A stretch of 64,000 nt of DNA from a virus, in IMG/VR virus record IMGVR_UViG_3300043399_000446, positions 1 to 64,000 of that record; one strand, given 5' to 3'. The position numbers and the translations under genes were made by a program. Below, piece by piece: positions 10,406-49,958 of this stretch. Every line of letters begins with the position of its first letter. Positions within the stretch are counted from its first letter, which is position 1. The notes below the pieces were generated by a model. It saw only the letters and a list, made by a program, of their open reading frames with translations. It was not told the DNA's origin and searched no databases.

Positions 10406-10798
10406 CTATTTGCGTTTGTAACCTTTGAACGATTTTATTGGACTGGTTTTATTAGTATCACCTAATTCTTGACTTTCATTGTGTGGATTTGGTGACAATG
10501 CGTCTTGCCAATCCACATTAGCCATTCTATACGCATGTTTTAGCATTTCAGCTTCCAATTTGGTATAAGGATGTGCAGTATTGTTTCTGCCCGCCCAACT
10601 TTGTTGAGGAATAGGTGGAAAATTTACTCCATCTGCAACAGCTACAAATTGCATAACTCTGTTCAAATCATACAACCTATCAGCAGTGCCTGCAACTCTA
10701 TGCGTGCCTGGCAATGAGGCTTCGTGTTCTTTAGGTAACTTTAGACCATTTTTTACAATGTTTTTGACTGCTTCGTTTATGAACTCTTTGGCACGCAT
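10406..10798 (-). CDS. tagged phage protein of unknown function (MRAKEFINE N-terminus)
   Basis: 130 residues from ATG 10798; a frame to 10825 adds nine residues. I prefer the inner ATG because it gives the MRAKEFINE tag shared with other genes here, and because an AGTAAATA late-type octamer lies exactly five bases upstream. The tag matches the T4 capsid-targeting pattern, with the I-x-E site cut by the gp21 prohead protease. The body carries an SWAGRNNTAHPYTKLEAEMLKHAY segment, split as SWAGRN then AHPYTKLEAEMLKHAY, typical of a conserved phage family. No Shine-Dalgarno is present. Function unknown; packaging in the head is inference. Confidence 0.7.
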   Translation of the reverse strand: MRAKEFINEAVKNIVKNGLKLPKEHEASLPGTHRVAGTADRLYDLNRVMQFVAVADGVNFPPIPQQSWAGRNNTAHPYTKLEAEMLKHAYRMANVDWQDALSPNPHNESQELGDTNKTSPIKSFKGYKRK

Positions 10799-10803
10799 CA
10801 AAA

Positions 10804-10811
10804 TATTTACT
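10804..10811 (-). promoter_or_regulatory. late-type octamer AGTAAATA five bases before an ATG
   Basis: The octamer differs from TATAAATA at two positions. Five bases separate it from the ATG at 10798, so a T4-like late start would fall on the A of the ATG. Confidence 0.45.
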
Positions 10812-10818
10812 GCGTACA

Positions 10819-10838
10819 AGTACATAAACTTATGTACT
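10819..10838. repeat. 20-bp inverted repeat between tilS and the tagged gene
   Basis: Two 9-base arms, AGTACATAA and TTATGTACT, with a 2-base centre. It lies just behind the tilS-like stop (10844) and ahead of the tagged gene. It could be an operator or an mRNA 3' end hairpin; no U-run follows. Confidence 0.5.
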
Positions 10839-10843
10839 ATAGT

Positions 10844-11440
10844 CTATAAATTTTTTTCAATGATCTTCTTGACTACAGTATGTAAGCCAGGATTTACTTT
10901 AAGTGCATGTGGCACTAGATGTTTGCGGATGTAGTTGCGAGTATACTTTTCGTCTTGATTGCTAAGATCCTCGCACCATTTTAACCCTTTACGCTCACAC
11001 CAACTGACAAACTCGCTTTTAGGTGTTGTTAGAAATGGTCTGATTACATTATCTCGGATCATGGGAATTACCTTAGGTGTACCATGCATACATGACCAAA
11101 GATAAGTTTCTACACAATCATCCAAATGATGTGCGGTTACAACTGGTCCCATACCCTCTCTGCAAAGAAATTCATAGCGACTGTTTCGCCAAAATTCTTC
11201 GGTGCTTAACTCTTTTGGTTTAGTGCCGCGAAGGAATCCAACCAATAAAGGTAAGTCATGCTCGTTACAAAACTTGCTGACGAATTCAAAAGCCCTATTA
11301 CTATTCTCAGTGCCATGATGGTAAAAGGCACAAGTAACCTCATGCTTTCTACGCAAGAAGTCAGTAATAGCAACACTATCCACACCACCTGAAAAAGCGA
11401 TGGTTAGTTTGCGTGGTAAGGGAACAAGAAGTTTTAGCAT
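10844..11440 (-). CDS. tilS: TilS-like PP-loop ATPase, tRNA(Ile)-lysidine synthetase core
   Basis: 198 residues from the ATG at 11440; a TTG five codons earlier is also in frame. It has the PP-loop FSGGVDS near residue 18, then TAHHLDDCVET, and the TilS-specific RPFLTTPKSE, KWCEDLSNQDEKYTRNYIR and P segments. TilS adds lysine to C34 of tRNA-Ile(CAU) so that it reads AUA. Bacterial enzymes have extra C-terminal domains (about 430 residues); this one keeps only the catalytic N-terminal domain. It has no ribosome site. TATAAT ends six bases before the ATG, so the mRNA may be leaderless. QueC was considered and rejected because the RPFL and SN-D-Y-RN motifs are TilS-specific. Confidence 0.85.
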   Translation of the reverse strand: MLKLLVPLPRKLTIAFSGGVDSVAITDFLRRKHEVTCAFYHHGTENSNRAFEFVSKFCNEHDLPLLVGFLRGTKPKELSTEEFWRNSRYEFLCREGMGPVVTAHHLDDCVETYLWSCMHGTPKVIPMIRDNVIRPFLTTPKSEFVSWCERKGLKWCEDLSNQDEKYTRNYIRKHLVPHALKVNPGLHTVVKKIIEKNL

Positions 11441-11458
11441 TCTTGTATTATACAAGAA
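11440..11458 (-). promoter_or_regulatory. -10 box inside an inverted repeat at the tilS start
   Basis: On the minus strand TATAAT (11447-11452) ends six bases before the ATG at 11440. It lies in a perfect inverted repeat of two 8-base arms (TTCTTGTA and TACAAGAA) around TAA. The -35 region (TTTCAA at a 17-base spacing) is poor. The arrangement suggests a repressor- or activator-controlled, leaderless promoter. Confidence 0.45.
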
Positions 11459-11466
11459 GTGGGATT

Positions 11467-12036
11467 TTATTGAAAGATATTTGGGTGATTTTTACCATAA
11501 ATCTTGATAAGTTTGCCCGCAACCATATCAGCTAACAATTCAATTGGGCTACCTGGATAGCTATCATTTGGTTCAATCATGCCCAATTCATGTTGTTTTA
11601 CATGTGTCAACTCATGTGCAACTGTTCTAAGAATATCAACTAAATTACGATTTTTGGCATATACCCAAATACTTCCTGATCCTGGAGTATGTCCACCAGT
11701 ATGAGTGTTTTCCTGTGCTTCTTCGGTATCCATACTCAATTCTATTTTAGGTAATTTACCCAAATTTAGCTTTTTACCTACCCAATTAGCAAAATCTCTT
11801 ACTATTTCTTCATTCGTATTTGGATCTTCATCCAGCTTATTTTTTATCCAATCGTCCGGTGTTTTCTTATATTTCTTTACAAAGATATCATGCAATGCGT
11901 TAGCTGATATCTTATGCTTTTTAGATATATTACGCATTAACTTGTCTATGGTATCGTAGTCGTGTTTAGCCAATGAAGGTAGTTTGTCCTTCAATTCTGT
12001 TACTGCCGAATCTAATAGTAATTCATTATAGCGCAT
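11467..12036 (-). CDS. HExxH metallopeptidase-like protein
   Basis: 189 residues. The zinc site HELTH (about 141-145) sits in a VAHELTHVKQ helix, and a downstream ELLADMVAGK helix offers the third ligand Glu, as in gluzincin-type and SprT-like peptidases. The family is not one I can name. The N-terminus MRYNELLLD resembles the tag of neighbouring proteins (MRYNEITKE at 13636) but lacks the exact I/L-x-E site. It starts exactly five bases after a GATAAATA late octamer and has no Shine-Dalgarno. A virion-carried protease is possible. Confidence 0.75.
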   Translation of the reverse strand: MRYNELLLDSAVTELKDKLPSLAKHDYDTIDKLMRNISKKHKISANALHDIFVKKYKKTPDDWIKNKLDEDPNTNEEIVRDFANWVGKKLNLGKLPKIELSMDTEEAQENTHTGGHTPGSGSIWVYAKNRNLVDILRTVAHELTHVKQHELGMIEPNDSYPGSPIELLADMVAGKLIKIYGKNHPNIFQ

Positions 12037-12041
12037 CAATT

Positions 12042-12058
12042 TATTTATCAGATAAATA
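12042..12058. promoter_or_regulatory. back-to-back divergent late promoters
   Basis: TATTTATC, one A, GATAAATA: two late octamers in opposite directions form a 17-bp palindrome. The minus-strand octamer (12042-12049) drives the metallopeptidase gene with exactly five bases before its ATG. The plus-strand octamer (12051-12058) drives the adhesin gene at 12086. Confidence 0.7.
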
Positions 12059-12085
12059 CAATATATTATCTTAAGGACTAATATT

Positions 12086-12802
12086 ATGGGAATGAGGTTT
12101 TCTAGTGGAATGAGATTGATTGGTGGTATGCGGGCGTTGAGTTCAGGTGGAGGGGGTGGTGGTTCAGATCCTTATTTTGCTAATGTAGTGTTACTAGTGC
12201 ATGGTGATGGTGCCAATGGTGGTACTACTTTTATAGATAGTAGCTCTTATAATAGAACTCCTCAGTTCATTTCAGATGTAACTACAAGTAATGAGCAAAC
12301 TATTTTTGGTCAAAATACAATTAAAAGTGTTCAAGGAACTTTTGGTGGCAGCGTGTTACAATATGCATCTAGTACAGATTTTGCTGCTAATCAGCCATTC
12401 ACTCTAGAATTTCAAATATATATAACTTCTGCCCCATTTTTTCAACCTTTCTTTATGGGAAGGTCAGGAACAAGTTATACTATAATTAATGAAGAATCTA
12501 AGGCTATTCAATTTAGTAGCTATCCTGGTGACGGAGGGGGAAATTTAACAGTGAATTCTTGGAATTATGTAGCATATTCAGTTAATTCAACAGAAGTTAA
12601 TTTGTATATTAATGGGAATAAAATGACCGGGACTAGTGTAGGACTATCTGATCCTGCTACTCAGCCTTTTGGTTTAACAAATATACCCGATGGCATAAGG
12701 TCTTTGCAGGGATATTTAGCAGAGATTCGTTACACTAAAGGGGTAGCCCGATATTCAGGCGCAACTATACCTTTACAAACAGCGCCTTGGCCTAATAGTT
12801 GA
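12086..12802 (+). CDS. LamG / concanavalin-like adhesin, tail fibre type
   Basis: 238 residues, one of the few plus-strand genes. A short Gly/Ser-rich N-terminus (to about residue 26) is followed by a VLLVHGDGANGGTTFIDSS strand opening, the usual start of phage LamG-type jelly-roll domains. LEFQIYI, NSWNYVAYSV and LYINGNK strands and a closing AEIRYTKGVARY complete the domain. It probably binds carbohydrate on the host surface as a decoration or fibre-tip protein. AAGGA lies nine bases before the ATG. It is a single-gene unit between a divergent late promoter and a bidirectional terminator. Confidence 0.8.
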   Translation: MGMRFSSGMRLIGGMRALSSGGGGGGSDPYFANVVLLVHGDGANGGTTFIDSSSYNRTPQFISDVTTSNEQTIFGQNTIKSVQGTFGGSVLQYASSTDFAANQPFTLEFQIYITSAPFFQPFFMGRSGTSYTIINEESKAIQFSSYPGDGGGNLTVNSWNYVAYSVNSTEVNLYINGNKMTGTSVGLSDPATQPFGLTNIPDGIRSLQGYLAEIRYTKGVARYSGATIPLQTAPWPNS

Positions 12803-12949: not shown

Positions 12950-13636
12950 TTAGGTTCTTGATTCCATAATACTGAACCAAGGATCTATAATAACTAATGT
13001 GCCATCTTGGCGCTGCATAACATTTTGTGTATGTAAATCCCAACCAAATTTATTTATATTACCTGTATGATATAGTAGTTGCATCAATGAGAATAAAATT
13101 CCCCACTTTGCTATATCTGAGTTATCCCAAGATTGTATATCAGCTATTACTTGCTCTATTGTTGGGGGTTCTTTTAAAAATATCCAAGTATGAGGATCTA
13201 ATAATTGTTCGTAGACTTGATTCCATTTCATGTTTTTTGTAGCAAAATCACTAAGCATCCAAACAATAGCCTCTTCAACTGTTCCCTCTGTAATAGGATA
13301 TAGTTGCTCCATAGATATCTGAATATATTCTTTATCACCTAGCATGAATGTAGCGTGATGTTTGCCTTGAATTTCAATGAATCTAGGTAAATTTTCATAT
13401 TGTTGATGCTGCTGAACAAACTCATAAAACTTATAAAAGATGTTTGCTGAGTGTGTTCTATCTTCAAAGGTGTCTGGCATTATAATTTTAATTACTTTGC
13501 CTGTATCTTTTGCCCACACTGTTGCATCAGCACCCGACCCCAGCATCTTGTATCCAGCGTTCTGTAATGTTTTTGTTATTTGTTGAGCTTCAGGGGTACC
13601 CACTTCAGCTTCTTTAGTTATTTCATTGTATCTCAT
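12950..13636 (-). CDS. protein-kinase-fold protein with capsid-tag-like N-terminus
   Basis: 228 residues from the ATG at 13636, whose ATGA overlaps the nuclease stop. The tag MRYNEITKE carries an I-x-K-E rather than a canonical I-x-E site. The kinase-fold landmarks are: G-loop GSGADA (33-38), beta-3 lysine in VIKII (K50), catalytic-loop-like WDLHTQNVM (D200, N205) and a metal-binding IIDPW (D218) in place of DFG. This is the pattern of small-molecule and atypical protein kinases. The C-lobe is short. Substrate unknown. It is the last gene of the minus-strand cassette starting at 17199. Confidence 0.7.
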   Translation of the reverse strand: MRYNEITKEAEVGTPEAQQITKTLQNAGYKMLGSGADATVWAKDTGKVIKIIMPDTFEDRTHSANIFYKFYEFVQQHQQYENLPRFIEIQGKHHATFMLGDKEYIQISMEQLYPITEGTVEEAIVWMLSDFATKNMKWNQVYEQLLDPHTWIFLKEPPTIEQVIADIQSWDNSDIAKWGILFSLMQLLYHTGNINKFGWDLHTQNVMQRQDGTLVIIDPWFSIMESRT

Positions 13637-14073
13637 TTTATAGGGCACCAACTTTGTTTTGCTGTTCCGTAATATTCGCGTGCATAACCATTAGCTATCA
13701 GCAAATATCTCAATGATACACCATCAATAATTAAATCACCTAATACCCTACCGCCATATTTGTCCCAATTCATTAAGACGATTTCTATTTTTTGAGCATT
13801 TGCTACAATTGTCTGTGTGTAAGTAGTAGCTTCTCTGCCTCGCTTATCTTCTTGTGGGCATTGGGCTCTTGATCCCTTTTCAGGTGTATCTACTCCATAT
13901 ATTCTTAAACTTAATTCTGGTTTTAAAGGTTGGGGCAAGAATTTAGCTTCAAATTTTACAGTATCGCCATCAACTACTGAAATGATTCTATAATCATATT
14001 TATTAAACGCGGGTTTAGCAAAGCCTAATAAAGGCAATGTTGAAAGTAATATTGTTGCTATTATTGTTTTCAT
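13633..14073 (-). CDS. secreted thermonuclease (SNase-like)
   Basis: 146 residues with a signal peptide: MKTIIATILLSTLPLLGFAKP has a basic start, a hydrophobic core and an Ala-Lys boundary near residue 20. The staphylococcal nuclease core follows: VVDGDTV, RIYGVDTPEKG with the catalytic Arg, Asp and Glu, then KYGGRVLGDL with the second Arg, and LIANGYAREYY. Two cysteines (CPQ and WCPIK) could form a disulfide in the periplasm. It starts one base inside the end of the amidoligase-like gene (TAATG) and its stop overlaps the kinase-like gene. Periplasmic action, perhaps against competing DNA or for nucleotide scavenging, is inference. Confidence 0.88.
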   Translation of the reverse strand: MKTIIATILLSTLPLLGFAKPAFNKYDYRIISVVDGDTVKFEAKFLPQPLKPELSLRIYGVDTPEKGSRAQCPQEDKRGREATTYTQTIVANAQKIEIVLMNWDKYGGRVLGDLIIDGVSLRYLLIANGYAREYYGTAKQSWCPIK

Positions 14074-16070
14074 TAGTCTGCTCTAATTGTTATGTCTCGC
14101 ATAGATAGTGAACCAAATATATCAGGCCTATCTTGTTGCGCCTGTCTATAAGCATCTTCTTGTGATGATGCTCTAACCATTATTTCTGCTCCAGGTCTTG
14201 CTGTAGGACTTACTCTATATAACTTTTCTTCAGATTGTTCAAAGGGCCTAATTAGTTTTGCTGTAGCTTTACCTTGTGATATTAAAGTTTGACCTGCTTC
14301 TTGTGGCATACCATATTCACTAAAAGCTTTTGCAAACGCTTCTTCTTTAGAACTTGCTGCAACTTCAATACCGTAATTACCAAAATTAACTTGCCACCAA
14401 TATTTACCTGTGGGTTTATTAGCAGTTTGATCTTTTTGATACTGACGCTGTGTTTGTATATTTTTAATAAAACTCTTTAGTGCCGATTGTGGCAACATAC
14501 CAGCACTATATTGAGCAAAAATTGCTATTGGATCATCATTAGATTTAGGTTGTAATAATTGATATAGCTTTTTCAAATATTCTTTACGATATGCCTGCGT
14601 ATCCATAGAAGCATCCAATGCTACTACAAATCGTAATAGTGTATTTGTTAGTTTGTTTATATCTTCGTTTAACCAATCGCCACCAGGACTACGAAACTCA
14701 ACATATCCTTCTTTAGGATTAATACTGGTATATTTACCGAATCCATCGCTGCTTGCTATTGCTCTTGATGCTATGGCGCCTAATCCTTTACGCATTTCAT
14801 CCATCAACTTTTGAGCGGAGTCGGGATAGTACCTTACTTGATCTTTAATTTTATCTAATGCGCTTTTTGTATAAGTATTAGCTTCGCGACCAAATTGTTC
14901 TAAAACATAATTATCGCCAAGTAATAATGCTAACTTTACAAAATCCATAAAAGCAACATTTTTACCTGGTATACTAATATTCATGTGTAAACCAGTTGAT
15001 TGATTGGTATATGCGCCACGTTGTTTAGCCCATGCTATAGTTTTCTTCAAATCACTTATCATTTCATCAATGGGCATCGGTGGACTTACAAATTCTAATC
15101 CACTGTCGTTGGCATCGTCTCCATCTATACTGCTATCAGGCTCTAAAACATATTTGTTAGGATCGCGTTTTGCGCCATGATATCTACCACTGACATTTAT
15201 ACCTTTACCTATCATATTGCTAAAATCTTCACCTACATCTTCAACTGACATTCCTCCGCCACTTGTTTCTGTATAATAGGGCCAAGCTACATAATTAGAA
15301 TAAGTCTGATAAACATCACTCATCCAACGTAGACCTTCGTCTTCAAAGAAATCGCTTTGGTCTGGTAAGTCAGAACTATCCATCCATCTATCGTAAGCGT
15401 TTTGGTATAAATCTCCCTGCTCATCCCATTCATTATCAACAAACTCATCAAACATTTCTTTGACGCGCTGTTTGACTTCATCACTGTCGGGATCTAAACC
15501 TAATTCTTCTGCTGCACTTTCTTGAGCTTCAGCAAAATCAAATTCATCTCCCATTTCTTCACGAAAAAACTCATCTTTTTCATCTTGCCACAATTCGCTT
15601 TGTTTTTCACTGGCCCATTCGTAGTAAGCTTCTTGTATTTTTTCTATCAATCTATCAACATCTCTACGACTGTTCCAATCACCATCAGCAAAAAAATCTT
15701 GAATGCCCTCAAAACTGCTTACTCTATCGTCGCTGCTAAAGTCTTGTTCTAATTCAGGTTCTTCGTCACCTTGAGTGTTTGGTACAACCATTTCAAATTC
15801 CATACCGGCTACTGCACCTGTATCTGCTGCTAATTTACGCAGATTACTTGGGCTCATATCTATTTCGTATAATGCCTCTTCTTCTAGTGGATGTAGTTTG
15901 GCTCCTGTAACCTGCTGTAGTAAGTCCCATGCCGCTTTCTTATCAGTAGAAAGCAAAAATTTCATTCTAACTTTTTCTTCAGGTGTGGCTACTTTTTGAA
16001 ACTTTACAAGTTCCATCATGCCAATATTATCTGGATAGGATAGTTCTTTTATGAATTGATTTGCTCTCAT
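14073..16070 (-). CDS. amidoligase-like protein with capsid-tag N-terminus
   Basis: 665 residues. N-terminal tag MRANQFIKE (I-x-E site). From about residue 88 the protein shows amidoligase (GCS/COOH-NH2 ligase fold) signs: a GMEFEMVVP strand, an acidic insertion of about 170 residues, GLEFVSPPMPIDEM, a GAYTNQSTGLHMNIS segment, a helical FVKLALLLGDNYVLEQFGR part and YVEFRSPGGDWL. Members of this fold make amide bonds between carboxylates and amines, for example on peptides. The C-terminal 120 residues contain two short repeats (EEAFAKAFSEYG and EDAYRQAQQDRP), each before a strand. It is the largest gene of the tagged cassette. The family call is by motif only. Confidence 0.65.
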   Translation of the reverse strand: MRANQFIKELSYPDNIGMMELVKFQKVATPEEKVRMKFLLSTDKKAAWDLLQQVTGAKLHPLEEEALYEIDMSPSNLRKLAADTGAVAGMEFEMVVPNTQGDEEPELEQDFSSDDRVSSFEGIQDFFADGDWNSRRDVDRLIEKIQEAYYEWASEKQSELWQDEKDEFFREEMGDEFDFAEAQESAAEELGLDPDSDEVKQRVKEMFDEFVDNEWDEQGDLYQNAYDRWMDSSDLPDQSDFFEDEGLRWMSDVYQTYSNYVAWPYYTETSGGGMSVEDVGEDFSNMIGKGINVSGRYHGAKRDPNKYVLEPDSSIDGDDANDSGLEFVSPPMPIDEMISDLKKTIAWAKQRGAYTNQSTGLHMNISIPGKNVAFMDFVKLALLLGDNYVLEQFGREANTYTKSALDKIKDQVRYYPDSAQKLMDEMRKGLGAIASRAIASSDGFGKYTSINPKEGYVEFRSPGGDWLNEDINKLTNTLLRFVVALDASMDTQAYRKEYLKKLYQLLQPKSNDDPIAIFAQYSAGMLPQSALKSFIKNIQTQRQYQKDQTANKPTGKYWWQVNFGNYGIEVAASSKEEAFAKAFSEYGMPQEAGQTLISQGKATAKLIRPFEQSEEKLYRVSPTARPGAEIMVRASSQEDAYRQAQQDRPDIFGSLSMRDITIRAD

Positions 16071-16078: not shown

Positions 16079-16762
16079 TTATAACTTATAATATTGATTC
16101 ATCACGTTGCTATTGAAGCCAACATCAATGATAACTGGTTTTCCTTGATATATACCCCAATTAACGGCTCTTCTAAAGTCACCTAATTCAACGTCAAACG
16201 AATTATTTAAATCTGCTAATGTATTAGCATAATCTGTCATTGTATCTATTTGTTCTTCTGATACATTGCGCTGACGAAGGAATGAAACAAAACTTTCATA
16301 GTTACCTGTATAACTCTTTTTACCTGTGATAGCCCAAGCCATGTTTACTAACTGCGACAAGTTATCACAGCCCATAATCTGGCACAATTGCTTCTCAGTT
16401 GCTTTTGTGGCCATTTCAGTATGAACCCAAGTAGGTTCACGATTCTGTTCGTCATAATCAATAATAGGTATCAATATACCTAGCTGACTTGCGTAACCAT
16501 CACTTAATATGTCTGCTTCTACACTATTCTGTGCTAGACCTTTTTGATTCTTAGCAATCTTTAGTACAGTAGGACGACCTTGATATTCAATGACTGTGGC
16601 AACACGGCTAGAACCAGCGCCTAATTTCTTGGCTCTTTCTAATGCATAAGCAAGTCTTGACTTGAATGTAGTTCCTTGTTGACGCATTTGAACAGGGTCC
16701 CAATCCGCAGGAAGAGGAGCTTCGTCAACAATAGCTTCTTTTAAAAATTCGTGGGCTCTCAT
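16079..16762 (-). CDS. kinase-fold protein with capsid-tag N-terminus
   Basis: 227 residues. The tag MRAHEFLKE has the L-x-E site. Kinase-fold landmarks: G-loop-like GAGSSR (48-53), VLKIA with K68, a helix glutamate E82, then VELGDFRRAVNWG (D195, N201) as catalytic loop and IIDVGF (D213) as the DFG counterpart. All key residues for ATP and metal are present, so it may be active. Its ATG overlaps the Dps-like stop (ATGA), so it is coupled to it. It shares the fold, but little sequence, with the protein at 12950-13636. Delivery into the host with the DNA is inference from the tag. Confidence 0.7.
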   Translation of the reverse strand: MRAHEFLKEAIVDEAPLPADWDPVQMRQQGTTFKSRLAYALERAKKLGAGSSRVATVIEYQGRPTVLKIAKNQKGLAQNSVEADILSDGYASQLGILIPIIDYDEQNREPTWVHTEMATKATEKQLCQIMGCDNLSQLVNMAWAITGKKSYTGNYESFVSFLRQRNVSEEQIDTMTDYANTLADLNNSFDVELGDFRRAVNWGIYQGKPVIIDVGFNSNVMNQYYKL

Positions 16763-17199
16763 GCTCTTTGTTTTTTAAGTAATGATTTTAATTGCCACTG
16801 CCATTTAGCATGTGCGTCAATTCTGCCAGCTATGTAATCAGCTATACCTTGCTCATCTGCTTCTTCAGCCAAATGAAAAGTTTGACGTAATAGTTCTATT
16901 AGTTTTTGATTATCTTCTGTTAACTCAGCTATCATTAACTCAGCGCGGGGAATTTTTACTTGATCTTGTATAATAGATAACTCGCCAAATCTAGTTAAAC
17001 TTCCTGGAGTATAACTATCTAATGTGCGAATTTTTTCTGCTGTTTCATCAATTGATTCAAAAACTTCTGTGTATATATCACCAAAGAATTCATGTAATTG
17101 TACAAAGTCTGGACCCTCGACGTTCCAGTGAAATGAATGTGTTTTAAGATAAAAGCAAAAACTGCTTGCTAAGTAAACTTTTAAACTATCAGATAGCAT
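16759..17199 (-). CDS. dps: Dps-like ferritin-fold protein
   Basis: 146 residues, the usual Dps size. The signature H24-WNVEGPDFVQL-H36-E followed by D51-ETAE55-KIR matches the Dps inter-subunit ferroxidase site with correct spacing. The acidic ligand expected four residues after the second His is Gly40, with Asp41 next to it, so iron oxidation may be altered. There is no basic N-terminal tail for DNA binding. Dps stores iron and protects DNA from peroxide. It is first in a unit with the two kinase-fold genes, the amidoligase-like gene and the nuclease. A GATAAATA octamer at 17223 and a weak GGGAT ribosome site precede it. Confidence 0.88.
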   Translation of the reverse strand: MLSDSLKVYLASSFCFYLKTHSFHWNVEGPDFVQLHEFFGDIYTEVFESIDETAEKIRTLDSYTPGSLTRFGELSIIQDQVKIPRAELMIAELTEDNQKLIELLRQTFHLAEEADEQGIADYIAGRIDAHAKWQWQLKSLLKKQRA

Positions 17200-17298: not shown

Positions 17299-17523
17299 TC
17301 ATTTCTTTCTCCCTTGACAATGTGCGCGCTGTGAAAACCCTTTAGGATTTTTGCAGTTAATAGAGCGTTTATACTTAGCACTCCATTTCTCATCTAATAC
17401 ATCTTCTTCAGTCAAATCGCCTGTTCTGCGCTGACCTTTTTTGATGAATGGTTGATTTTCCTGCTCCCAAGTTTCAGGATAATTCATACCTAAACTTTCT
17501 TTGATAAATTCTTTGGCTCTCAT
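17299..17523 (-). CDS. small tagged protein with conserved basic C-terminus
   Basis: 74 residues. The tag MRAKEFIKE carries an I-x-E site. The C-terminal part, WSAKYKRSINCKNPKGFSQ then RAHCQGRKK, is a basic module with two cysteines that I recognise from many T4-like environmental phages, usually at the end of tagged proteins. It overlaps the stop of the upstream gene (ATGA at 17520-17523). Function unknown. Confidence 0.75.
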   Translation of the reverse strand: MRAKEFIKESLGMNYPETWEQENQPFIKKGQRRTGDLTEEDVLDEKWSAKYKRSINCKNPKGFSQRAHCQGRKK

Positions 17524-18509
17524 TTTACACTTGTTAAACTTATTCTGTATTGTTTACCGTGACTATCTTTTACGATGAGGCCTCCATTTTCAATCTTAAC
17601 AACAGTAACCGTACCTAACAGTCCATGTGTTACTTGTTTACCTGGAACAAGATTGCTGACATCAATATTCTTAGAACTCATACTTTCTTCAACATCTTGT
17701 TCATTTTGAATGCCACGCATGATTGCACTTTCGCTTTTTGTGCCCCAGTTCTTAGCACCTTTCTTGCGACATTTTACTAATGCACCTGAAGCATATGCTG
17801 ATGGCCAAACTTTGTATCTGCTCTTTACTTTATAATAGCAGGCGTCTTTTTTCTCCATCATTAATGCTTCGCTAAACATTGGACCTGCACAATGTGGGCA
17901 TTTTTCTTCTTTTATATCTTGCTCATCTAAAACATCACGGTAAAGTTCTAACCTACGCTTTTCAGTATCCAATCTTCTTTGTATATCTTCACGATCAATA
18001 TAAGGGTTAGGATCTTTTAGTTCAGATTCTAGACGTTTAATTACAGCTATTATTGCTTCAGCTTCTTTTTTTGCTCTTGCTTGTTTAGTTAATCCTTCCT
18101 CTACAGTTTCATCAGTTTTCTTTTTACAACTACCTGGCGCACCTGCTGGCACACCTTGAACTCTTGTATAGCCAGACCAACATTTTAGTTCGTCAAGTTG
18201 TTCTTCCGATATACCTTCGTTTGATTTCTTTTTAGTAGCGACATTGATCGCTTTGCCACTACGCTCTGGATTAGGATCTTCTCTGCGCTTGCGGGCTGCT
18301 GCACTAGCACGACCTTTCTTACCTAAAGAGTGTGCTTTACTCTGTGGCAAACATTTTGGTTTACCTTCACTATCATCTCCTCTAGCACAATCTCCTCGGA
18401 TCTTTCCATCAGGACCAAATCTTACCCATTTTTCTTTAAACCATTTACGTAAATCTTCGTTGATAGAATTTTCGGTACTTTTGACTAGGCCTTCAAATAT
18501 CTTACTCAT
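17520..18509 (-). CDS. modular basic phage protein (DUF6321-like module)
   Basis: 329 residues from the ATG at 18509, which has AAGGA nine bases upstream and begins five bases after the previous stop. Modules: residues 20-90 hold the LRKWFKEKWVRFGPDGKIRG and CLPQSKAHSLGKKGRASAAA blocks of a small conserved phage domain. A linker with a CWSGYTRV block follows. A helical charged part leads to CPHCAGPMFSE, and then a MEKKDACYYKVKSRYKVWP block ends with GALVKCRKKGAKNWG. The last 50 residues look like a small beta domain (LVPGKQVTHGLLGTVTVVKI). Several L-x-E and I-x-E sites lie in the linkers. Function unknown. Confidence 0.75.
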   Translation of the reverse strand: MSKIFEGLVKSTENSINEDLRKWFKEKWVRFGPDGKIRGDCARGDDSEGKPKCLPQSKAHSLGKKGRASAAARKRREDPNPERSGKAINVATKKKSNEGISEEQLDELKCWSGYTRVQGVPAGAPGSCKKKTDETVEEGLTKQARAKKEAEAIIAVIKRLESELKDPNPYIDREDIQRRLDTEKRRLELYRDVLDEQDIKEEKCPHCAGPMFSEALMMEKKDACYYKVKSRYKVWPSAYASGALVKCRKKGAKNWGTKSESAIMRGIQNEQDVEESMSSKNIDVSNLVPGKQVTHGLLGTVTVVKIENGGLIVKDSHGKQYRISLTSVK

Positions 18510-18513
18510 TGTA

Positions 18514-19692
18514 TTAATCCTTTTTCTTTTCGGGAAGACCTTTATGTTTTGTAGCAGCATATTCGTGACCTGCTTTTTTGCTCATACCTTTAGCCACTTT
18601 AGCTACCTCCTTGCTTGCTGGCTTCTCACCTTTTTGTGCAGCATGGACCATTCCCATAAATCTTTGTTGTGCTTTACTTACTGCTTTTTCTGCCACAATA
18701 TCAATCTTGGGTTTAATTTGATTTGATGTAGTTTCTTTATCAATAGTGCTATAAATTTTTGCTACACGTTCACCTTTAAAATCTATAGGTGTTTGTTGTT
18801 CTTTGGCTTTGTGGGCAGCAACCATTTTTTTAAACTGAGTATTTTTTAACATTTTTACAAATTTTCGGGGATCCATCAAAATCTGTAAAAAATCATCTTT
18901 TCTATCAGTTGACCTATATAGTTCCTGTATTGCCTTTGCTGCTGCGGACGTTACCGGTCCAGCCACACCACCTATATTAATTTCAATTGATTTATTAGAT
19001 TTTGCAGCGTTAAATATTTTATCTAAAATTTCATTAGCTTTTATGGAGGGACCTGGTTCTACTGTATGTGCTTCATATTGAGGTCCACCTGCAATAACTC
19101 CTGCACCTGTAACAGCCTCTCTGGCCATAGTTTTATGCTCAAGATATTCGCGAATAGTGTTTAGATAATCGTTTGCTTTTATAATCTTTTCTTGTACCCA
19201 GCCTTCTAAACCTTCTTCTTCGCTGATTTCAGAAATCAATTCATAAACTTTTTTAGCATTCTTTGCTGCTTGAAATAGATCACTACGCGCCATTTCTACT
19301 TCGTGGTCAGTGCGATCTTTGTCATGTGGTATAAATCCTGATTTTAATTTGCGACCTATTCCTGGCACTAAAATCAAATCATCTTCTTCTAACTTAGCTT
19401 CATCTACTTTTGTAGTATCCTGTTGAGGTTTACTTTTCATTAAAGCACGCATTTCTTGTTTAGTTTTGCCATATTTCTTTTTGAATTCTTCATCAGACAT
19501 TCCATCTTTGCCTGAACTAAGATCCATTTGTAATTCCTTGACTCTACCTTCAGAGATGCTATTAGCGTATTTTTTATTTGTTTTTTTACCGGTAAGTAGA
19601 TTACCGCCTTTACGACTTTGTTTGAATAAGGGAGTGGCTACTGTAGCAACGCTACCTGATGTCGTAGTTTCTACAATTTGAGTGATTTTCAT
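18514..19692 (-). CDS. modular phage protein with DUF3008-like C-terminus
   Basis: 392 residues. The N-terminus MKITQIVE resembles a short tag with an I-x-E-like site (I-V-E). Residues about 120-190 contain the HDKDRTDHEVEMARSDLFQA helix-rich domain conserved in T4-like marine phages. The last 55 residues (SKAQQRFMGMVHAAQKGE, then KGMSKKAGHEYAATKHKGLP) match the small DUF3008 family, which normally stands alone. The centre is low-complexity and rich in Lys and Glu. A GATAAATA octamer at 19721 precedes it. It leads the cassette that runs down to 17299. Confidence 0.75.
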   Translation of the reverse strand: MKITQIVETTTSGSVATVATPLFKQSRKGGNLLTGKKTNKKYANSISEGRVKELQMDLSSGKDGMSDEEFKKKYGKTKQEMRALMKSKPQQDTTKVDEAKLEEDDLILVPGIGRKLKSGFIPHDKDRTDHEVEMARSDLFQAAKNAKKVYELISEISEEEGLEGWVQEKIIKANDYLNTIREYLEHKTMAREAVTGAGVIAGGPQYEAHTVEPGPSIKANEILDKIFNAAKSNKSIEINIGGVAGPVTSAAAKAIQELYRSTDRKDDFLQILMDPRKFVKMLKNTQFKKMVAAHKAKEQQTPIDFKGERVAKIYSTIDKETTSNQIKPKIDIVAEKAVSKAQQRFMGMVHAAQKGEKPASKEVAKVAKGMSKKAGHEYAATKHKGLPEKKKD

Positions 19693-23157: not shown

Positions 23158-25113
23158 CTATTTCCTTAACAAGGGAGGTATTCCTGCCCTACTAACTTTA
23201 AATCCAAAAGCTTTAGCATTCTTTTTGATAGTATTGGGTTTTACATCCACTGTTAGCGCAGTTTTAAATCTTGGATCATTCTTTTCTGCGTTGCTTGGTA
23301 TATATCCTGAAGCACTTTCGTCAACTTTTGTTAGCGATTTCCATTTATTAGCTAAATTATTAACCAAGTCGCTAACATTATTAAGTTTATTTGCCTGCAT
23401 GTATCTAATGATATTAATCGCATGTTCTCTATCTGGACCTGAATTGGGTTTACGAGCATTACTTAAATCATTAGCAAGTCCTTTGGCCGCATCATTTTTA
23501 TAGTAATCTTGGTATATCAAACTATAACGCAATTTATTTGCTTTATCACTTAATAGGTTTTGATTGTTAGATTTAACTAATTCTATCCAAGGTAGTAAAT
23601 AACCTTTATGTGTACTTATATAACCGCCTGTTCGTTCTTGTCCTGTTAAAATAGAAACATCTCCAAGTTTTCTTGTATCTTGATTTCTCCAAGCATTTTT
23701 ATCTGTATAAAAGTATGTTGAGATTCCCAATCTTTTAGCTAAAATTAAATCTTGTCTAGCCCAAGCTTTGGTTCTTGACTCTGCTTCAGGCGACACATAA
23801 ATATGTATTTCGGTTACTCCCTTAATACTCATCGTAGGATCTTTACTAAAAATTCTATCTTCTGCTTCATGTGTTCTATGATGAGATTTTTGCGGGTCAC
23901 GGTTGCTCCAATAATCTACAGGCGCGGCCTTGTAATGACTGCTATACCATTTACCATCTAACACAAATAAAACAGCGTCATCACCTATTGTTTCGTGGTA
24001 TCCACCTCGTCTTGACCTTGTGGTGCTCAAAAAATAAGGATAACCTTTGGGGGCATATTGTTCTTCTACGCTTCCTAATGTGCTACTTAATTGAAATTCG
24101 CCTGTGCTTAAAATATTTTTTGCAGTAACGGCTGTAGTATAATGATATACAATTGGACTTAATCCTTCATTTAAAAAAGTTTCTTCTAAATTGGCTTTTA
24201 ACAGTTTTGTATAGTAGTTGGGATCTTCTTTAAGATGGTCTAATGCTATTTCTTTAGCAACTTTTATGTCTTTAGTATGTTCTTGTTCTACTTTAATACC
24301 CTTCTTTAACTCTGCCATAATGTGTTCTACACTAACATTATGTCTTTTAGTTAATTGTTGGGGAGTTAGAGTAGGGACATTTAATATAGATTGTTCATAC
24401 ATAGCTTCAATACTTAAACTCTTGCTATGTAGTTTGTCTCGTAGATCGTATAATTTTGTTAGCCAACCCTGACTGCGTAATGCTTTGTAAGCCAAGTTTT
24501 CGGGGCTGAATTCGCCACCTTTATCTAAACCCACTTGACGATAGCGACGCATTGTTTTTAGAAGTTCTTCTACTTTTTTGATGTTTTTAGATTTCAATGC
24601 TATCTGTACTAAATCATATAGCTTTTTGAACTTTTGCTTTGTTATAGTTTGATCCAAGTTTGCTCTTCGTTTTACTGGAATTCTTAACCATTTATTTTGT
24701 AATAAACTATACTCACCCAAACTAATTACAGGCTCATTGCTGTCTTGTACATAAAGTTCTACAGGTACACCATGAACTTTTATATCGTGACTATCGTTAT
24801 ATATTGTCTTTTTGGCGTTGAATAACTCACGATAAACTTCATCGTTAGATAGTTTGTTAAAATCTACTAAGATGTGTAAATCTAAATCGCTATGTGGCGT
24901 ATAAGTATAGGCTGCATTTGATCCTGATATAGTGATATCTGCTACATCTAAATCTTTAATACCTAATTCTGTAATGAAATCCTTAGCTATCAATATCAAT
25001 TGCTTTTTAACTTCAGGGCGTGGCTTATTGTTCACGAATAGTTTGGGATTCAACTTATCGTGAAATTTGACGGCGTCTGAGAGTTTGAAAGATTCTAATT
25101 GATTGATATTCAT
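23158..25113 (-). CDS. nucleotidyltransferase plus ADP-ribosyltransferase-like fusion protein
   Basis: 651 residues. Residues about 60-120 hold a pol-beta-type nucleotidyltransferase motif: SGSNAAY, then SDLDLH with D76 and D78, and a later VELYV strand. A helical middle part follows (130-290). From about residue 318 LSPIVYHYTTAVTAKNIL, PYFLSTTRSRRGGYH and AEDRIFS resemble the ART fold as in DarT-like enzymes (a YH-T opening, an FLS-TR strand and a late Glu-Asp-Arg). The last 60 residues look like a separate tail. The ART call is tentative. It starts five bases after a GATAAATA octamer with no ribosome site. T4 packages the ART Alt, which makes a head-delivered role plausible. Confidence 0.65.
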   Translation of the reverse strand: MNINQLESFKLSDAVKFHDKLNPKLFVNNKPRPEVKKQLILIAKDFITELGIKDLDVADITISGSNAAYTYTPHSDLDLHILVDFNKLSNDEVYRELFNAKKTIYNDSHDIKVHGVPVELYVQDSNEPVISLGEYSLLQNKWLRIPVKRRANLDQTITKQKFKKLYDLVQIALKSKNIKKVEELLKTMRRYRQVGLDKGGEFSPENLAYKALRSQGWLTKLYDLRDKLHSKSLSIEAMYEQSILNVPTLTPQQLTKRHNVSVEHIMAELKKGIKVEQEHTKDIKVAKEIALDHLKEDPNYYTKLLKANLEETFLNEGLSPIVYHYTTAVTAKNILSTGEFQLSSTLGSVEEQYAPKGYPYFLSTTRSRRGGYHETIGDDAVLFVLDGKWYSSHYKAAPVDYWSNRDPQKSHHRTHEAEDRIFSKDPTMSIKGVTEIHIYVSPEAESRTKAWARQDLILAKRLGISTYFYTDKNAWRNQDTRKLGDVSILTGQERTGGYISTHKGYLLPWIELVKSNNQNLLSDKANKLRYSLIYQDYYKNDAAKGLANDLSNARKPNSGPDREHAINIIRYMQANKLNNVSDLVNNLANKWKSLTKVDESASGYIPSNAEKNDPRFKTALTVDVKPNTIKKNAKAFGFKVSRAGIPPLLRK

Positions 25114-26366: not shown

Positions 26367-27035
26367 TTATTTTTCGTCTATATAGTCTTGATTTTCAAGG
26401 ATATTTTGAGGTTTAGTTTCAACTAAATTTTCTGCTAGTGTTTCTGCAACCTGCTCGCCCATGACTTGGTCAAACATTTGAACAACATTTTGTGCTAATT
26501 TAGGATTAGTCTGTGCTTTAGGATACAAACTCATAACTAATGCTGTTTTACGCTTATCGTTTAATGTAGGCCAAGCTTTACGAATTTGTGTGGCACTTGT
26601 TATGCCAGGTCCAAATTCAACAGTGGGCAAATAAGCCATATATGCGTGCTTGCTAAAAGGTTGTAGGTTTTTTCCTGTATATGGTTGAAAGTACGCAGGT
26701 GAACCATCTTTCTTTGTTCCACCTGCTTGAGGGGGTTCGTTGCGATCCTTTTCGCTACGCACGAAAATCAATACATCTTCTTCGGGATTAAATTGTTGTG
26801 TAATTTCTTTAGCTTGAAATGGGCTTTTAACTTGAATAAAATGACCAGGTTCAACGCCTGCTAATTTTGCTAATTTTTCCTTTAGTGCGAACGGGAAAGG
26901 TCTTTCACTTTGGTCATTGGTTGCAGCTACATAAACTTCAGCATTGGGGAATGCTTTTTTAGCCGATTGATATAACGCAAAATGCCCTGCGTGAAATGGA
27001 TGAAAGCCACCTGGCATTATAACAAGCATACGCAT
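26367..27035 (-). CDS. HxGH-family nucleotidylyltransferase (NMNAT / cytidylyltransferase like)
   Basis: 222 residues. The nucleotide-binding motif GGFHPFHAGH lies at residues 9-18, and ITSATQIRKA (about 147-156) matches the family ISSTxIR loop. EVYVAATND and VLIFVRSEKDR strands complete the Rossmann-like core. Such enzymes transfer AMP or CMP, for example onto NMN, pantetheine phosphate or sugar phosphates; NAD salvage occurs in other T4-like phages. The C-terminal 60 residues (Gln/Asn/Glu-rich) are outside the core. The substrate cannot be chosen from the sequence. Confidence 0.78.
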   Translation of the reverse strand: MRMLVIMPGGFHPFHAGHFALYQSAKKAFPNAEVYVAATNDQSERPFPFALKEKLAKLAGVEPGHFIQVKSPFQAKEITQQFNPEEDVLIFVRSEKDRNEPPQAGGTKKDGSPAYFQPYTGKNLQPFSKHAYMAYLPTVEFGPGITSATQIRKAWPTLNDKRKTALVMSLYPKAQTNPKLAQNVVQMFDQVMGEQVAETLAENLVETKPQNILENQDYIDEK

Positions 27036-31818: not shown

Positions 31819-32364
31819 TTATAATCCGGCCATAGCCTTGAAATTTTTAATTTCAACATCTGCGTCATCGTATATAGGTTTGGCACCTATTCCTGCAATC
31901 TCACGCATTTCATTTAAGTCACCTTCGGACTCTTCTTCTATTCTATATTCATGTGGTGAAATTGTTATGACTTGTTTTAATATATTGCTGTCAGCCTCAA
32001 ATTCTTCTTCGTTGACCATAACAACCCACTCAGTAGGCTCTATACCTGTTAGTGTTTTTAAATCTGAAATAAGTTCAACTATATGTGCAGGTACTGTACT
32101 TCTGCGATTCATTTCAACGAATACAACCCATTTACCTGGAGATAGTTCACCTTCGCTTATGCTTGCATCAAGTACCCAATCATAGCCCCGCTCGAACCAT
32201 TCAGCTAAATCTCTACCTGCCATTTCACTATAAACAACAAATGCTAATGTAACGATGTCGCTATCTTTACCCATTTTAGCAGAGTATTCATCGACTGATA
32301 CGGTTGAATCCATCATGCCTTCTAAGTCGTGATAGTCTAATCCCTCTTTAAGAATTCTTTTCAT
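31819..32364 (-). CDS. conserved-type phage protein, unknown function
   Basis: 181 acidic residues. The N-terminus MKRILKE could be a short tag with an I-x-x-E or L-K-E end. The body has a DIVTLAFVVYSEMAGRDLAEW segment and a YDWVLDASISEG strand. The C-terminus (LNEMREIAGIG, then VEIKNFKAMAGL) is typical of proteins in T4-like environmental phages. AAGGAT precedes the ATG. It lies upstream of the putative holin. Confidence 0.65.
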   Translation of the reverse strand: MKRILKEGLDYHDLEGMMDSTVSVDEYSAKMGKDSDIVTLAFVVYSEMAGRDLAEWFERGYDWVLDASISEGELSPGKWVVFVEMNRRSTVPAHIVELISDLKTLTGIEPTEWVVMVNEEEFEADSNILKQVITISPHEYRIEEESEGDLNEMREIAGIGAKPIYDDADVEIKNFKAMAGL

Positions 32365-47152: not shown

Positions 47153-47168
47153 AAAAGTTTGTCCAAAA

Positions 47169-47195
47169 AAATACCCGGGAATTCCCCGGGTATTT
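47169..47195 (-). terminator. rho-independent terminator behind the core-like gene
   Basis: An 11-bp stem (AAATACCCGGG and CCCGGGTATTT) with a 5-base loop, followed on the minus strand by a run of T. It closes the transcript of the gene ending at 47211, just before the late promoter of the fibre cluster. Confidence 0.88.
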
Positions 47196-47210
47196 AAAAT
47201 GCAGTTTATT

Positions 47211-49322
47211 TTACTTTAATCCTGCTAGCTTTTTCCAGTCAGTTAAAGAATCACCTTCTGTTACTTTAACTGATGTGTGGGGTAGCGTTGTTTGATCACG
47301 CTTTTGTTTATTCAACCCACCTGATATTACCTTAGTCATAAAATCCATATCCGCTTCAAATGTATCATCAGCACTGTTTGCAAATGATTCTTCTAATCCA
47401 TCATCCTGTTCTTCATCTGATTCTTCTTCAAGTTTAGAATCATCTGCACCTGCTGAATTTGCTAATCCTATGTTATCAGCAGCGATTTCTTTATCTTCTG
47501 CGTCGACTTCTTCTGCACCTGAATCGGGAGGATTATCTTCAGAAACTTCAAATTCCATCTGATCCTCTGTTTCGACTTCATCAACCATTTCTTTATCGCC
47601 GCAAGAATGTCCTGCTTCCAGCATGCCACCGCATTCTTGGCATGTTTCTTTATGACCGTCACATTGGCAATCTTGCATACCGCAATCAGGGCATACTTCA
47701 CCGTGTTCGTGATCGTGACTACCCATCTCATCAGCATAATCGTGAGAATCATCATGTGAGCCACCTGGCATACCTGTTCCAGCTACTTTCTTAATTAGTG
47801 CCATCATACCATCATGATCGTCAACTACTGTAAGATCGCCATGTTGTTTAACCGTATCTTGGTCAGCATGTGAAACTCCATAGTCGCTAGGTTGTTCTTC
47901 ACCGCCTAGAATTCCCATTTGCTTTACTAAAGCCATAAGCTTGTCTGCATCACTATCGCTAGCAGTTACACTTACTGAATCAGGAGCACCCATTTGACCT
48001 TTTGATACAGAAATGCTCATCCCTTCTTCGATGGCTTCACCTTCAGTTAGAAGTTCATTTAGTTGGTTGTCCCAACCTTCAAATGCCATCATCATTTCAT
48101 CAACTTTAGCATCATAATCTGATGTATCTTTGAAAGTTTTGCCACCAACACTAAACTTTTCACCTTTTTCTGCTTTTGCTAATGCTGCTGTGAAAGCATT
48201 TCCTTCTTCCATTTCATCTTCCATTGCTGGCATAGCTTGACTTGCCATTCCAGAAACTGTTGCTGCGGGCATTTCTTCACCAACTACTACACCACGCATT
48301 GGCATGATACCATAGCATTCGTCAAGACCCATTTTGTATCCTTCGTGATACATACGAGCTTCTTCGCTGCCTTCATCATAACGGCAGTGATAACTTTCTT
48401 TAGCAAGAGCGTGTGATTTGCCTCTGTGGTGTGCTGCTTTTAGGCGTTGATCCATGCCTTCTTCTACTTTCTTTTTCTTTTTATCACCAGCAGCCTTCTT
48501 CATGGTTTCTTTCTTGTTTCCATCTTTATCTAAGTCTAGAAAATCTGGTTTTGATCCTTTTGCTTCTAATGTTAAAGGAGATGCTAATGCGTCATTTGGT
48601 GGCATATCAGCTTCATTAGTTTTAGCACGTAGTTTAGCTAATACTGCACCTGCTACTTTTTCACCACGCTCTTTTGAACCATAATGCTCGCCCGCACTCT
48701 TAGCAATCTTAGCAAACTGCTTACCAGGCTTACCAATGTCTTTACCTGCACGGGCTGCCTTAGCTGAGTAATCGGCTTCACCTAGCTCGCTACCTGCCAA
48801 ACTCATTTCACCCTTGCCAATAGCTTGTTTGATTGTGTTAGCTAGTTGTGGATTAGCAACTTGTCCTAATACTTTAGTACCTTGTTTGATTACTTGTGTA
48901 GATGCTTTAGCTGGTTCTATAGTTAATTGTTCTGCTTCGGCTAGCATATCCAACTCAGCAATCCAATCTTTTAGGCTTTCTTTGACTTTCTTTTTCTCTG
49001 ATGGCTCCTTGTCAGATAGCTTGTGCTTTGTTTTTCCTAGCTTTTCTAGTTCTTTGCTTTTCTTAGGAACGCTACCTACAATATAACGCTGTAACTCTGA
49101 TGCTCCACCATAACGCTTTGATGTATCAGCTTCACCACCTGCTTTACGAGGACGGCCGCGGCCACGCTTTTCAGCAGGAGCCGCAGTTTTTTTCTCACCA
49201 TCTTCGTCATCTTCGTCATCATGTTGTGCGGCGCCACCATAAGCTTTACCTGCGACTTTTCTTGATGTCATTTCAGCTTCGTTAAGCTGGTCTAGTTTTC
49301 CTAAAAGACTTTTGAAATCCAT
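47211..49322 (-). CDS. large modular internal/core-like protein with many prohead-protease-type sites
   Basis: 703 residues, very charged. The N-terminus MDFKSLLGKLDQLNE carries an L-x-E site, and further L/I-x-E sites recur (LAE, LGE, LTE, IEE). Modules in order: an AT-hook RGRGRPRK near 55, helical LRAKTNEADMPPNDA and FLDLDKDGNKK segments, a SYHCRYDEGSEEARMYHEGY block, and a His/Asp/Cys-rich zinc part (CPDCGMQDCQCDGHKE, CQECGG). The tail is acidic and ends LTDWKKLAGLK. It resembles proteins located with head genes of T4-like cyanophages. A scaffold or internal-protein precursor cut into peptides is possible. Function unproven. Confidence 0.7.
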   Translation of the reverse strand: MDFKSLLGKLDQLNEAEMTSRKVAGKAYGGAAQHDDEDDEDGEKKTAAPAEKRGRGRPRKAGGEADTSKRYGGASELQRYIVGSVPKKSKELEKLGKTKHKLSDKEPSEKKKVKESLKDWIAELDMLAEAEQLTIEPAKASTQVIKQGTKVLGQVANPQLANTIKQAIGKGEMSLAGSELGEADYSAKAARAGKDIGKPGKQFAKIAKSAGEHYGSKERGEKVAGAVLAKLRAKTNEADMPPNDALASPLTLEAKGSKPDFLDLDKDGNKKETMKKAAGDKKKKKVEEGMDQRLKAAHHRGKSHALAKESYHCRYDEGSEEARMYHEGYKMGLDECYGIMPMRGVVVGEEMPAATVSGMASQAMPAMEDEMEEGNAFTAALAKAEKGEKFSVGGKTFKDTSDYDAKVDEMMMAFEGWDNQLNELLTEGEAIEEGMSISVSKGQMGAPDSVSVTASDSDADKLMALVKQMGILGGEEQPSDYGVSHADQDTVKQHGDLTVVDDHDGMMALIKKVAGTGMPGGSHDDSHDYADEMGSHDHEHGEVCPDCGMQDCQCDGHKETCQECGGMLEAGHSCGDKEMVDEVETEDQMEFEVSEDNPPDSGAEEVDAEDKEIAADNIGLANSAGADDSKLEEESDEEQDDGLEESFANSADDTFEADMDFMTKVISGGLNKQKRDQTTLPHTSVKVTEGDSLTDWKKLAGLK

Positions 49323-49334
49323 TTTAAGTTCCTT

Positions 49335-49958
49335 TTATTTCTTGGCGCCAGTTTTTGGTAATGCTGGTCGTTTAATTGTAGTCATTGGACTCTTTACACC
49401 TAAAGATGCGTCATCTTTTTGTGGCTTCCATGGGTCAAAACTATCTTTAGTTTTAGGAGCATCAAAATGCTCAGTGCCCTTGATATGTCCATCATCCGTT
49501 TGTTTCTTGATTTCATCTAGATACGAATTGCCATAAGCTTTAGCAGCTTCTTTACCATTATCAGGCATTTCTTCATGAGTAAGAACAGGACTATTGTCCA
49601 TCTGATTCTGATACTTTTCTGCTTCACTGTTCTGACTATCATCAAATGATGTAGAAACTAATCTAACCATGTTGACATTGTAGCCTAACAGTTGGGCCAT
49701 TTGCTGAACCATAGGCTCAGTTGCTGGATATCTAAATTCACACTTGATTATTGTTACAGGTTGATTTTCTATTCCAGGAAAGCCATATGGTGTTTTCTGA
49801 ATAGGAGTAGAAACAGGTTCACTGATTTTGATTGGGTCAAATTTTTTCAAGTTAAACTTGAACATATCTAACCAATTCTTATCAACTTCACCTGCAATCT
49901 TAATGGTGTAATTATATGTCTTTACACTTTCAGAGATAAATTGTTTTAACTGTTTCAT
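49335..49958 (-). CDS. conserved-type protein with capsid-tag N-terminus
   Basis: 207 residues. The N-terminus MKQLKQFISES matches the T4 internal-protein tag (M-K-T-Y-Q-E-F-I-x-E) better than any other here, with the I-S-E site. Residues 14-110 form an alpha/beta domain (YNYTIKIAGEVDKNW, then TIIKCEFRYPATEPM), as in a conserved family beside head genes. The tail is hydrophilic. Two late octamers lie upstream. Function unknown; a head-internal protein is the best guess. Confidence 0.75.
   Translation of the reverse strand: MKQLKQFISESVKTYNYTIKIAGEVDKNWLDMFKFNLKKFDPIKISEPVSTPIQKTPYGFPGIENQPVTIIKCEFRYPATEPMVQQMAQLLGYNVNMVRLVSTSFDDSQNSEAEKYQNQMDNSPVLTHEEMPDNGKEAAKAYGNSYLDEIKKQTDDGHIKGTEHFDAPKTKDSFDPWKPQKDDASLGVKSPMTTIKRPALPKTGAKK

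Follow-up and report, generated by a model that had tools for sequence, protein, structure and literature searches.

Unrelated proteins encoded in a 64-kb stretch of viral DNA share a short N-terminal motif. We consider it highly probable that this motif is a T4-type capsid-targeting sequence (CTS) that ends in a cleavage site for a gp21-family protease, that the same cleavage also takes place between the modules of longer proteins, and that at least some of the products are ejected into the host. The stretch, hereafter the window, comprises bases 1-64000 of the 86,132-base IMG/VR virus contig IMGVR_UViG_3300043399_000446. The closest matches to the tail sheath encoded by this contig come from jumbo phages of the T4 superfamily: Sinorhizobium Phosso, Pseudomonas PA5oct and Agrobacterium Atu_ph07. 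Throughout, h denotes a hydrophobic residue, an hxE site is I/L/V/M-x-E and a vertical bar marks a predicted cut point.

A shared leader on unrelated proteins

Five strong leaders, all on the minus strand, lie where an earlier note on this DNA had placed them: MRAKEFINE at 10798, MRANQFIKE at 16070, MRAHEFLKE at 16762, MRAKEFIKE at 17523 and MKQLKQFISE at 49958. As a correction to that note, the gene at 10798 sits nested in an open reading frame (ORF) open from 10825. The bodies behind these leaders are mutually unrelated, as claimed, and fall into different families: Amidoligase_2 (E=4e-9), phrog_4301 with kinase-like motifs, a 74-residue Cys/Lys-rich protein and two uncharacterized proteins of 130 and 207 residues. 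Homology ties three of the four leaders listed as weaker to this system. The leader at 12036 (MRYNELLLD) heads an orthologue of tagged metallopeptidases, in which its last residue is E in 42 of 44 and D in the window copy; the body behind MRYNEITKE at 13636 is the same kinase that is found behind LDE| within tagged proteins; and MKRILKE|G at 32364 has its hxE kept in all three orthologues. The fourth, MKITQIVE at 19692, is partly supported by MKINQIISE and MKINQIIVE in relatives.

The proposed likeness to the T4 CTS, MKTYQEFIAE, held up: the leaders agree with it in length (9-10 amino acids), Phe, Ile/Leu, terminal Glu and the unrelated bodies that follow. In the T4 sequence, residues 4 and 7 serve targeting and residues 8 and 10 processing, and Asp at position 10 stops processing while leaving targeting intact (PMC9026906). 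When the tag is aligned to it on FIxE, the equivalents of residues 7, 8 and 10 are retained.

The shared leader is real and occurs far above chance. A home-made gene caller predicted 764 genes across the contig and four relatives. Of these, 15 begin with the strict motif M[RK]AxxF[ILVM]xE, which starts at none of 4059 internal methionines; its non-Met part is found at 2.7e-5 of interior positions. A motif search over related phages, of the kind that the earlier note had suggested, returned 24 matches to a DNA pattern for the tag in 12 related contigs and none to the reversed pattern. In IMG/VR, MRAxEFhxE matched at least 120 stretches and the order-swapped control MRAxFEhxE, scanned to completion, matched 8. 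The matches listed comprise 193 unique tagged ORFs, with a median length of 135 amino acids and with the tag Met a median of 7 codons past the preceding in-frame stop. Single linkage groups their bodies into 30 families. A variety of at least about 30 families among the matches listed is much above that of T4, as anticipated. In relatives, the tagged bodies are kinase-like, GNAT, ADP-ribosyltransferase (ART), amidoligase, metallopeptidase and lysozyme-like proteins, besides uncharacterized ones.

Because M1, R2, A3, E5, F6 and E9 of the IMG/VR set are fixed by the search pattern, they were not used as evidence of conservation; homologues were instead retrieved through the body alone, with the leader ignored. 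For the metallopeptidase (11467-12036), 44 unique N-termini carry E directly before the body in 42 cases and [ILVM]xE in 41, while no fixed residues are kept after Met in the leader's first half (MISKNFIAE|S, MLTEHIIIE|S, MKTYQIVLE|S, MRYTEFIIE|S). All 39 unique homologues of 49335-49958 keep a 10-residue leader Mxxxxx[YF][IL]xE followed by S. In homologues of the kinase-like protein (16079-16762), hxE directly precedes [AM]PLPxxWD in 21 of 21 unique contexts, and very different domains stand between tag and kinase in tagged relatives. The amidoligase has hxE at all 14 readable junctions, behind a short tag or a nucleotidyltransferase-like domain alike. The leader stops exactly where body homology starts. 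Searches of the isolates in the phage collection with 10406, 12950 and 49335 by tblastn gave no match at the limits used, and the bodies of family FAM0 were too divergent in alignment to yield a pattern for a body-only IMG/VR search.

Predicted cut sites within longer proteins and the gp21 protease

The bodies that follow tags recur within longer proteins, and the site recurs with them: at 59 of 84 unique internal junctions [ILVM]xE stands immediately before body position 1, with E in 72, compared to 0-12 of 84 at neighbouring offsets and an hxE background of 1.7%. Examples are AINE|DWQKVNKKDKTDG, VDE|NLRKWFKEKWVRFG, IAE|AFDQPYP and LDE|LFQPGK, together with ISE|EAKASKYKGL before a GNAT-like and IDE|MPLPADWDP before a kinase-like domain. 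A second test was independent of the tag. Starts of pairwise internal homology share an hxE within six residues in 196 of 951 cases (20.6%), against 3.7% of interior control columns, and the test marks window sites in 14073-16070, 16079-16762, 17520-18560, 18514-19692 and 23158-25113. The earlier list of leaders had left out internal sites at 17520-18560, 23158-25113, 14073-16070, 17299-17523 and 18514-19692. The last named module of 17520-18560, after MME|, is common to cyanophage gp114, and gp114-type proteins bearing these modules occur in hundreds of cyanophage records. Since hxE is kept at internal module boundaries, prohead-protease sites seem to serve these phages in two ways: in the removal of leaders and in the cutting of modular polyproteins, gp114 of cyanophages among them.

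gp21 (PF03420) is present in the 364-kb relative G001 (E=6e-28), in XacN1 and in Alishewanella phage Slicko01; it was found in seven of seven further tag-bearing contigs of at least 147 kb, eight of eight in all, and also in cyanophages Syn9, S-SSM7 and S-SCSM1. The G001 protein retains the GE-x-x-HP and GVSSRG stretches. A T4-type head cluster is present in the four relatives examined, and the G001 gene order (gp20, a small protein, a gp67-like acidic protein, gp21, the gp22 position, gp23) is that of T4. T4 gp21 cuts after L/I-X-E (PMC9026906). All four have a major capsid protein in which hxE stands at residues 7, 19, 34 and 42/43 and next only at about 388-391; site 42/43 aligns with the T4 cleavage site in G001. 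The gp22-position protein carries 24-27 hxE sites in 363-367 residues (about 7%), compared to a proteome-wide rate of 1.57% in G001. The hxE sites of these two expected substrates therefore make the site specificity readable from the same phages. The tagged window genes lie outside any head cluster, and other proteins hold the gp22 and gp67 positions in relatives; the tagged proteins are thus not a gp22/gp67-type core.

Cargo and competing explanations

Among tagged or module-bearing proteins we found matches to Amidoligase_2, GNAT, ADPrib_exo_Tox, the T7-type protein kinase family phrog_15752, chitinase/lysozyme-like and LysM domains, DUF6267 with a KWDG motif, an HExxH metallopeptidase and a nucleotidyltransferase. 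Several unrelated enzymatic domains may share one polypeptide, as in the window at 23158-25113 (NTP_transf_2, DUF5661, ART-like) and in an L161 protein (lysozyme, LysM, ART-like). Kinase-PolyVal at 12950-13636 scored 20 bits, under the 27-bit cut-off. The model of the kinase-like protein (16079-16762) is of low confidence (pLDDT 56.5) and has no fold match in PDB, so that this kinase call is made from sequence motifs only. FAM0, modelled with moderate confidence (pLDDT 78.8, pTM 0.43), is small and helical, and a viral fold search with it gave nothing beyond one uncharacterized protein (E=0.13). To judge by its families, the cargo seems to resemble host-modifying enzymes and counter-defence proteins such as T4 Alt and IPI.

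From these sequences we infer that the proteins in question are targeted to the head, cleaved, packaged and injected. The leader would carry each cargo protein into the prohead core during head assembly, where a gp21-family protease would cut after I/L/V/M-x-E and leave the mature cargo among the DNA. Because the same protease sites part modules within longer proteins, one targeted precursor could yield several head-borne enzymes or basic peptides. At least some products would probably be ejected into the host with the DNA, as are T4 Alt and IPI, the likely purpose being counter-defence and host take-over. We also think it fairly likely that T4-superfamily jumbo phages and cyanophages assemble head cargo from shuffled modules, each placed after a gp21-type I/L/V/M-x-E site, and that the maturing head itself thereby frees a mixture of effector enzymes and basic peptides from few targeted precursors. 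The many tagged bodies and the sites within longer proteins suggest that the protein cargo of such heads is much bigger than that of T4 and is cut to size.

Virion mass spectrometry (MS) of other phages lends indirect support. In PA5oct, the homologues of 49335 (EST35_0202), family FAM4 (EST35_0205) and family FAM19 (EST35_0238) are all marked as structural proteins detected by electrospray ionization tandem MS (ESI-MS/MS); the 49335 link was made by phmmer only, via the G001 orthologue (E=9e-12). SSCSM1_29, a gp114-type protein with the same modules, carries the label 'virion protein' in the S-SCSM1 record; the paper behind that record lists 45 virion proteins detected by MS.

Several points weigh against our explanation. 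The leader of EST35_0202 in PA5oct ends in D (MKSFRDYYD), the PA5oct MS list includes metabolic enzymes too and the comparison covered about half of that genome, so that detection there is support, not proof, of head location. The window's own proteins are predicted to be in the virion, with indirect support from such MS-annotated homologues in other phages. The gp21 homologue expected in the same phage was not found on the window's own 86-kb contig, which is a fragment; the larger contigs of tag-bearing relatives do encode one. Some related families (contig 74705-75874 and 72174-72509) are leaderless in the window's lineage. Finally, a test for T4 late promoters gave no clear enrichment: GATAAATA, one of four patterns tried, lies upstream of 9 of 31 tagged genes and of 91 of 733 others (p=0.013).

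The strongest alternative accepts that the leader targets and the protease cuts, but takes the products as structural or DNA-condensing head components and not as injected effectors. T4 retains internal peptides from gp22 and gp67, several of the modules here are short and rich in Lys, Arg and Cys (KWSAKYKRSINC..., NFADGKKPGRKG...), and FAM0 is without an enzyme signature. Enzyme-like cargo makes little sense for structure, however, and many cargoes look enzymatic (Amidoligase_2, ADPrib_exo_Tox, GNAT, T7-kinase-like, metallopeptidase); we regard this explanation as possible, if rather unlikely. Much less probable is that hxE is an ordinary Glu-rich linker between recombining domains and the N-terminal motif a conserved element that serves translation or folding and has no role in the head. 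Linkers are often acidic and domain shuffling is evident, but the hxE signal is position-exact at offset 0, with a hydrophobic P3 and a mostly polar P2 that match the known specificity of gp21; moreover, tag and gp21 occur together, and the gp22-position scaffold and the major-capsid propeptide show the same density of sites. Hardest to credit is the spread of the tag by descent of one N-terminal exon-like segment that is now neutral: MRA at positions 1-3 is very uniform within one phage group, yet metallopeptidase orthologues change residues 2-5 freely while keeping hxE, the DNA codons of the tag vary, and XacN1 and Alishewanella phages place other leaders (MKQVRLSQFLSE|, MKIYNLYSTLLE|) before the same body.

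Window features, known systems and implications

Table 1. Leader-bearing and modular genes of the window with their predicted cut sites.
Feature	Positions	Strand	Remarks
Tagged gene MRAKEFINE|A..., 130 aa	10406-10798	-	Commonest tagged family, at least 75 members among the matches listed; often in tandem pairs; predicted helical with extended tails
Leader MRAKEFINE, predicted prohead-protease site INE|A	10772-10798	-	From sequence
Metallopeptidase-like (HELTHVKQHE), variant leader MRYNELLLD|S	11467-12036	-	D where orthologues have conserved E
T7-kinase-like, leader MRYNEITKE|AEV	12950-13636	-	Homologues behind internal LDE| in MRAxEF-tagged proteins
Amidoligase-like, leader MRANQFIKE|	14073-16070	-	Further site LYE| (residue 69) immediately ahead of the conserved amidoligase region
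Kinase-like phrog_4301, leader MRAHEFLKE|	16079-16762	-	Second site VDE| directly before APLPADWDP
74-aa tagged protein MRAKEFIKE|SLGMNYPETWEQENQ...VLDE|KWSAKYKRSINCKNPKGFSQRAHCQGRKK	17299-17523	-	Internal site before basic Cys module
Modular polyprotein, 346 aa	17520-18560	-	Sites backed by homology: SINE|DLRKWFKEKW, GISE|EQLDE|LKCWSG, VEE|GLTK, IKE|EKCPHC, MME|KKDACYYKVKSRYKVWPSAYASG
Modular protein, leader MKITQIVE|TTTSGS	18514-19692	-	Internal VDE|AKLEEDDLILVPG and VAE|KAVSKAQQRFMGMVHAAQKGEK (DUF3008-like module)
Multidomain protein	23158-25113	-	Nucleotidyltransferase-like N-terminus, then FLNE| and ADP-ribosyltransferase-like module (GLSPIVYHYTT...), VDE|SASGYIPS module
Virion structural family phrog_13138, leader MKRILKE|GLDYHD	31819-32364	-	Orthologues MTRILNE|, MTNILNE|, MQLNE|
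Acidic protein of 703 aa, rich in hxE sites (LNE|AEM..., IEE|GMSISV...)	47211-49322	-	Candidate core or polyprotein
Protein with 10-aa leader MKQLKQFISE|S	49335-49958	-	Homologue in PA5oct ESI-MS/MS annotated

A Dps/ferritin-like gene (16759-17199, minus strand), itself without a leader, lies between two of the tagged genes. The NMNAT/cytidylyltransferase-like protein at 26367-27035 (minus strand) has a C-terminal run of hxE sites, MGE|QVAE|TLAE|NLVE|, and in its L020 relative such a site leads into a module that shares homology with the 17523 body. Cyanophage virions are reported to contain NMNAT-like proteins (PMC9602691); 26367-27035 was dropped as a counterpart of the S-SCSM1 virion NMNAT when the S-SCSM1 genome gave no match. 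In two tagged or internal-site proteins, L012:10660-11301 and L066 (ORF from 14139, minus strand), a twin-arginine-like SRRGFLG stretch comes after the predicted cut, and in the former a chitinase/endolysin-like domain comes next. Beyond the window, a DUF6267-type, nucleotidyltransferase-like protein with the KWDG motif (contig 74705-75874, minus strand) carries the tag MRAFEFLTE| in some phages, and in the window's lineage its orthologues conserve no leader, an instance of a leader gained or lost. Both this protein and contig 72174-72509 were rejected as tagged proteins of that lineage, their orthologues not keeping the site. Homing-endonuclease-like proteins at 9421-10077 and 49988-50614 (minus strand) and at contig 64313-64936 have a common C-terminal Cys/His tail (CPHCGxxG...). 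The gene at 3996-5558 (minus strand), with a GDSGGFQ motif seen by eye, is queuine tRNA-ribosyltransferase-like and possibly serves DpdA-type DNA modification.

The closest known system is that of T4 IPI, IPII, IPIII and Alt, which likewise combines a short N-terminal leader ending in [LI]-x-E with unrelated bodies, and which has gp21 and the order of head genes in common with relatives such as G001. The T4 internal proteins and their CTS are the work of Mullaney and Black, covered in two reviews (PMC9026906, PMC9958956). In contrast to T4, the leader here is MRAxEF[IL]xE, the bodies fall into dozens of families, many of them predicted enzymes, and internal sites lie between modules. A CTS shared by diverse internal proteins is already known in T-even phages (PMC3012670, PMC12373910) and has been suggested to let T4-like phages package various proteins (PMC9026906). 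T-even ip genes were found by their signal sequence (Repoila 1994, as cited in PMC12373910), and IP1-3 block GmrSD enzymes (PMC12373910). There, too, genes are recognised by a common packaging leader on non-homologous bodies; the T-even ip products are small inhibitors encoded by coliphages, whereas the cargo here is multidomain and enzymatic and belongs to environmental jumbo phages.

Polyvalent proteins show similar combinations of kinase, ART, GNAT, peptidase and lysozyme domains and are predicted to be injected (PMC5512222). Embedded metallopeptidases have been proposed to release them, in contrast to the prohead-protease sites at boundaries, and the CTS-type leader as putative packaging signal, seen here. 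phiKZ and SPN3US are likewise jumbo phages with many cleaved head or ejection proteins and a gp21-related protease (PMC5694885, PMC9026906), but several SPN3US propeptides exceed 100 amino acids and the phiKZ site is S/A-x-E, as opposed to a leader of 9-10 residues and I/L/V/M-x-E. Cyanophage gp114 (Syn9, S-SSM7, S-SCSM1) has the same basic modules, KDACYxKVKSRYxVWPSAYASG and GAAWTKK...GGLNE|KGRKSYERENPGS, with hxE between them; it differs in being without the MRAxEF leader. In freely searchable text, subscription journals and supplements aside, and in passages of the jumbo-phage papers PMC7824862 and PMC13282480, we found no mention of this tag for jumbo phages, nor of modules parted by prohead-protease sites.

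The head-packaged proteins of large T4-related phages are among the least annotated phage proteins. If our explanation is true, a tag of nine residues and a cut site of three would make head-packaged, probably injected proteins readable from sequence and would directly supply candidates for enzymes of anti-defence and host takeover. It would also connect the internal proteins of T4 with the concept of 'polyvalent proteins' and would explain the modular gp114 proteins of cyanophages as precursors that are cut in the head.

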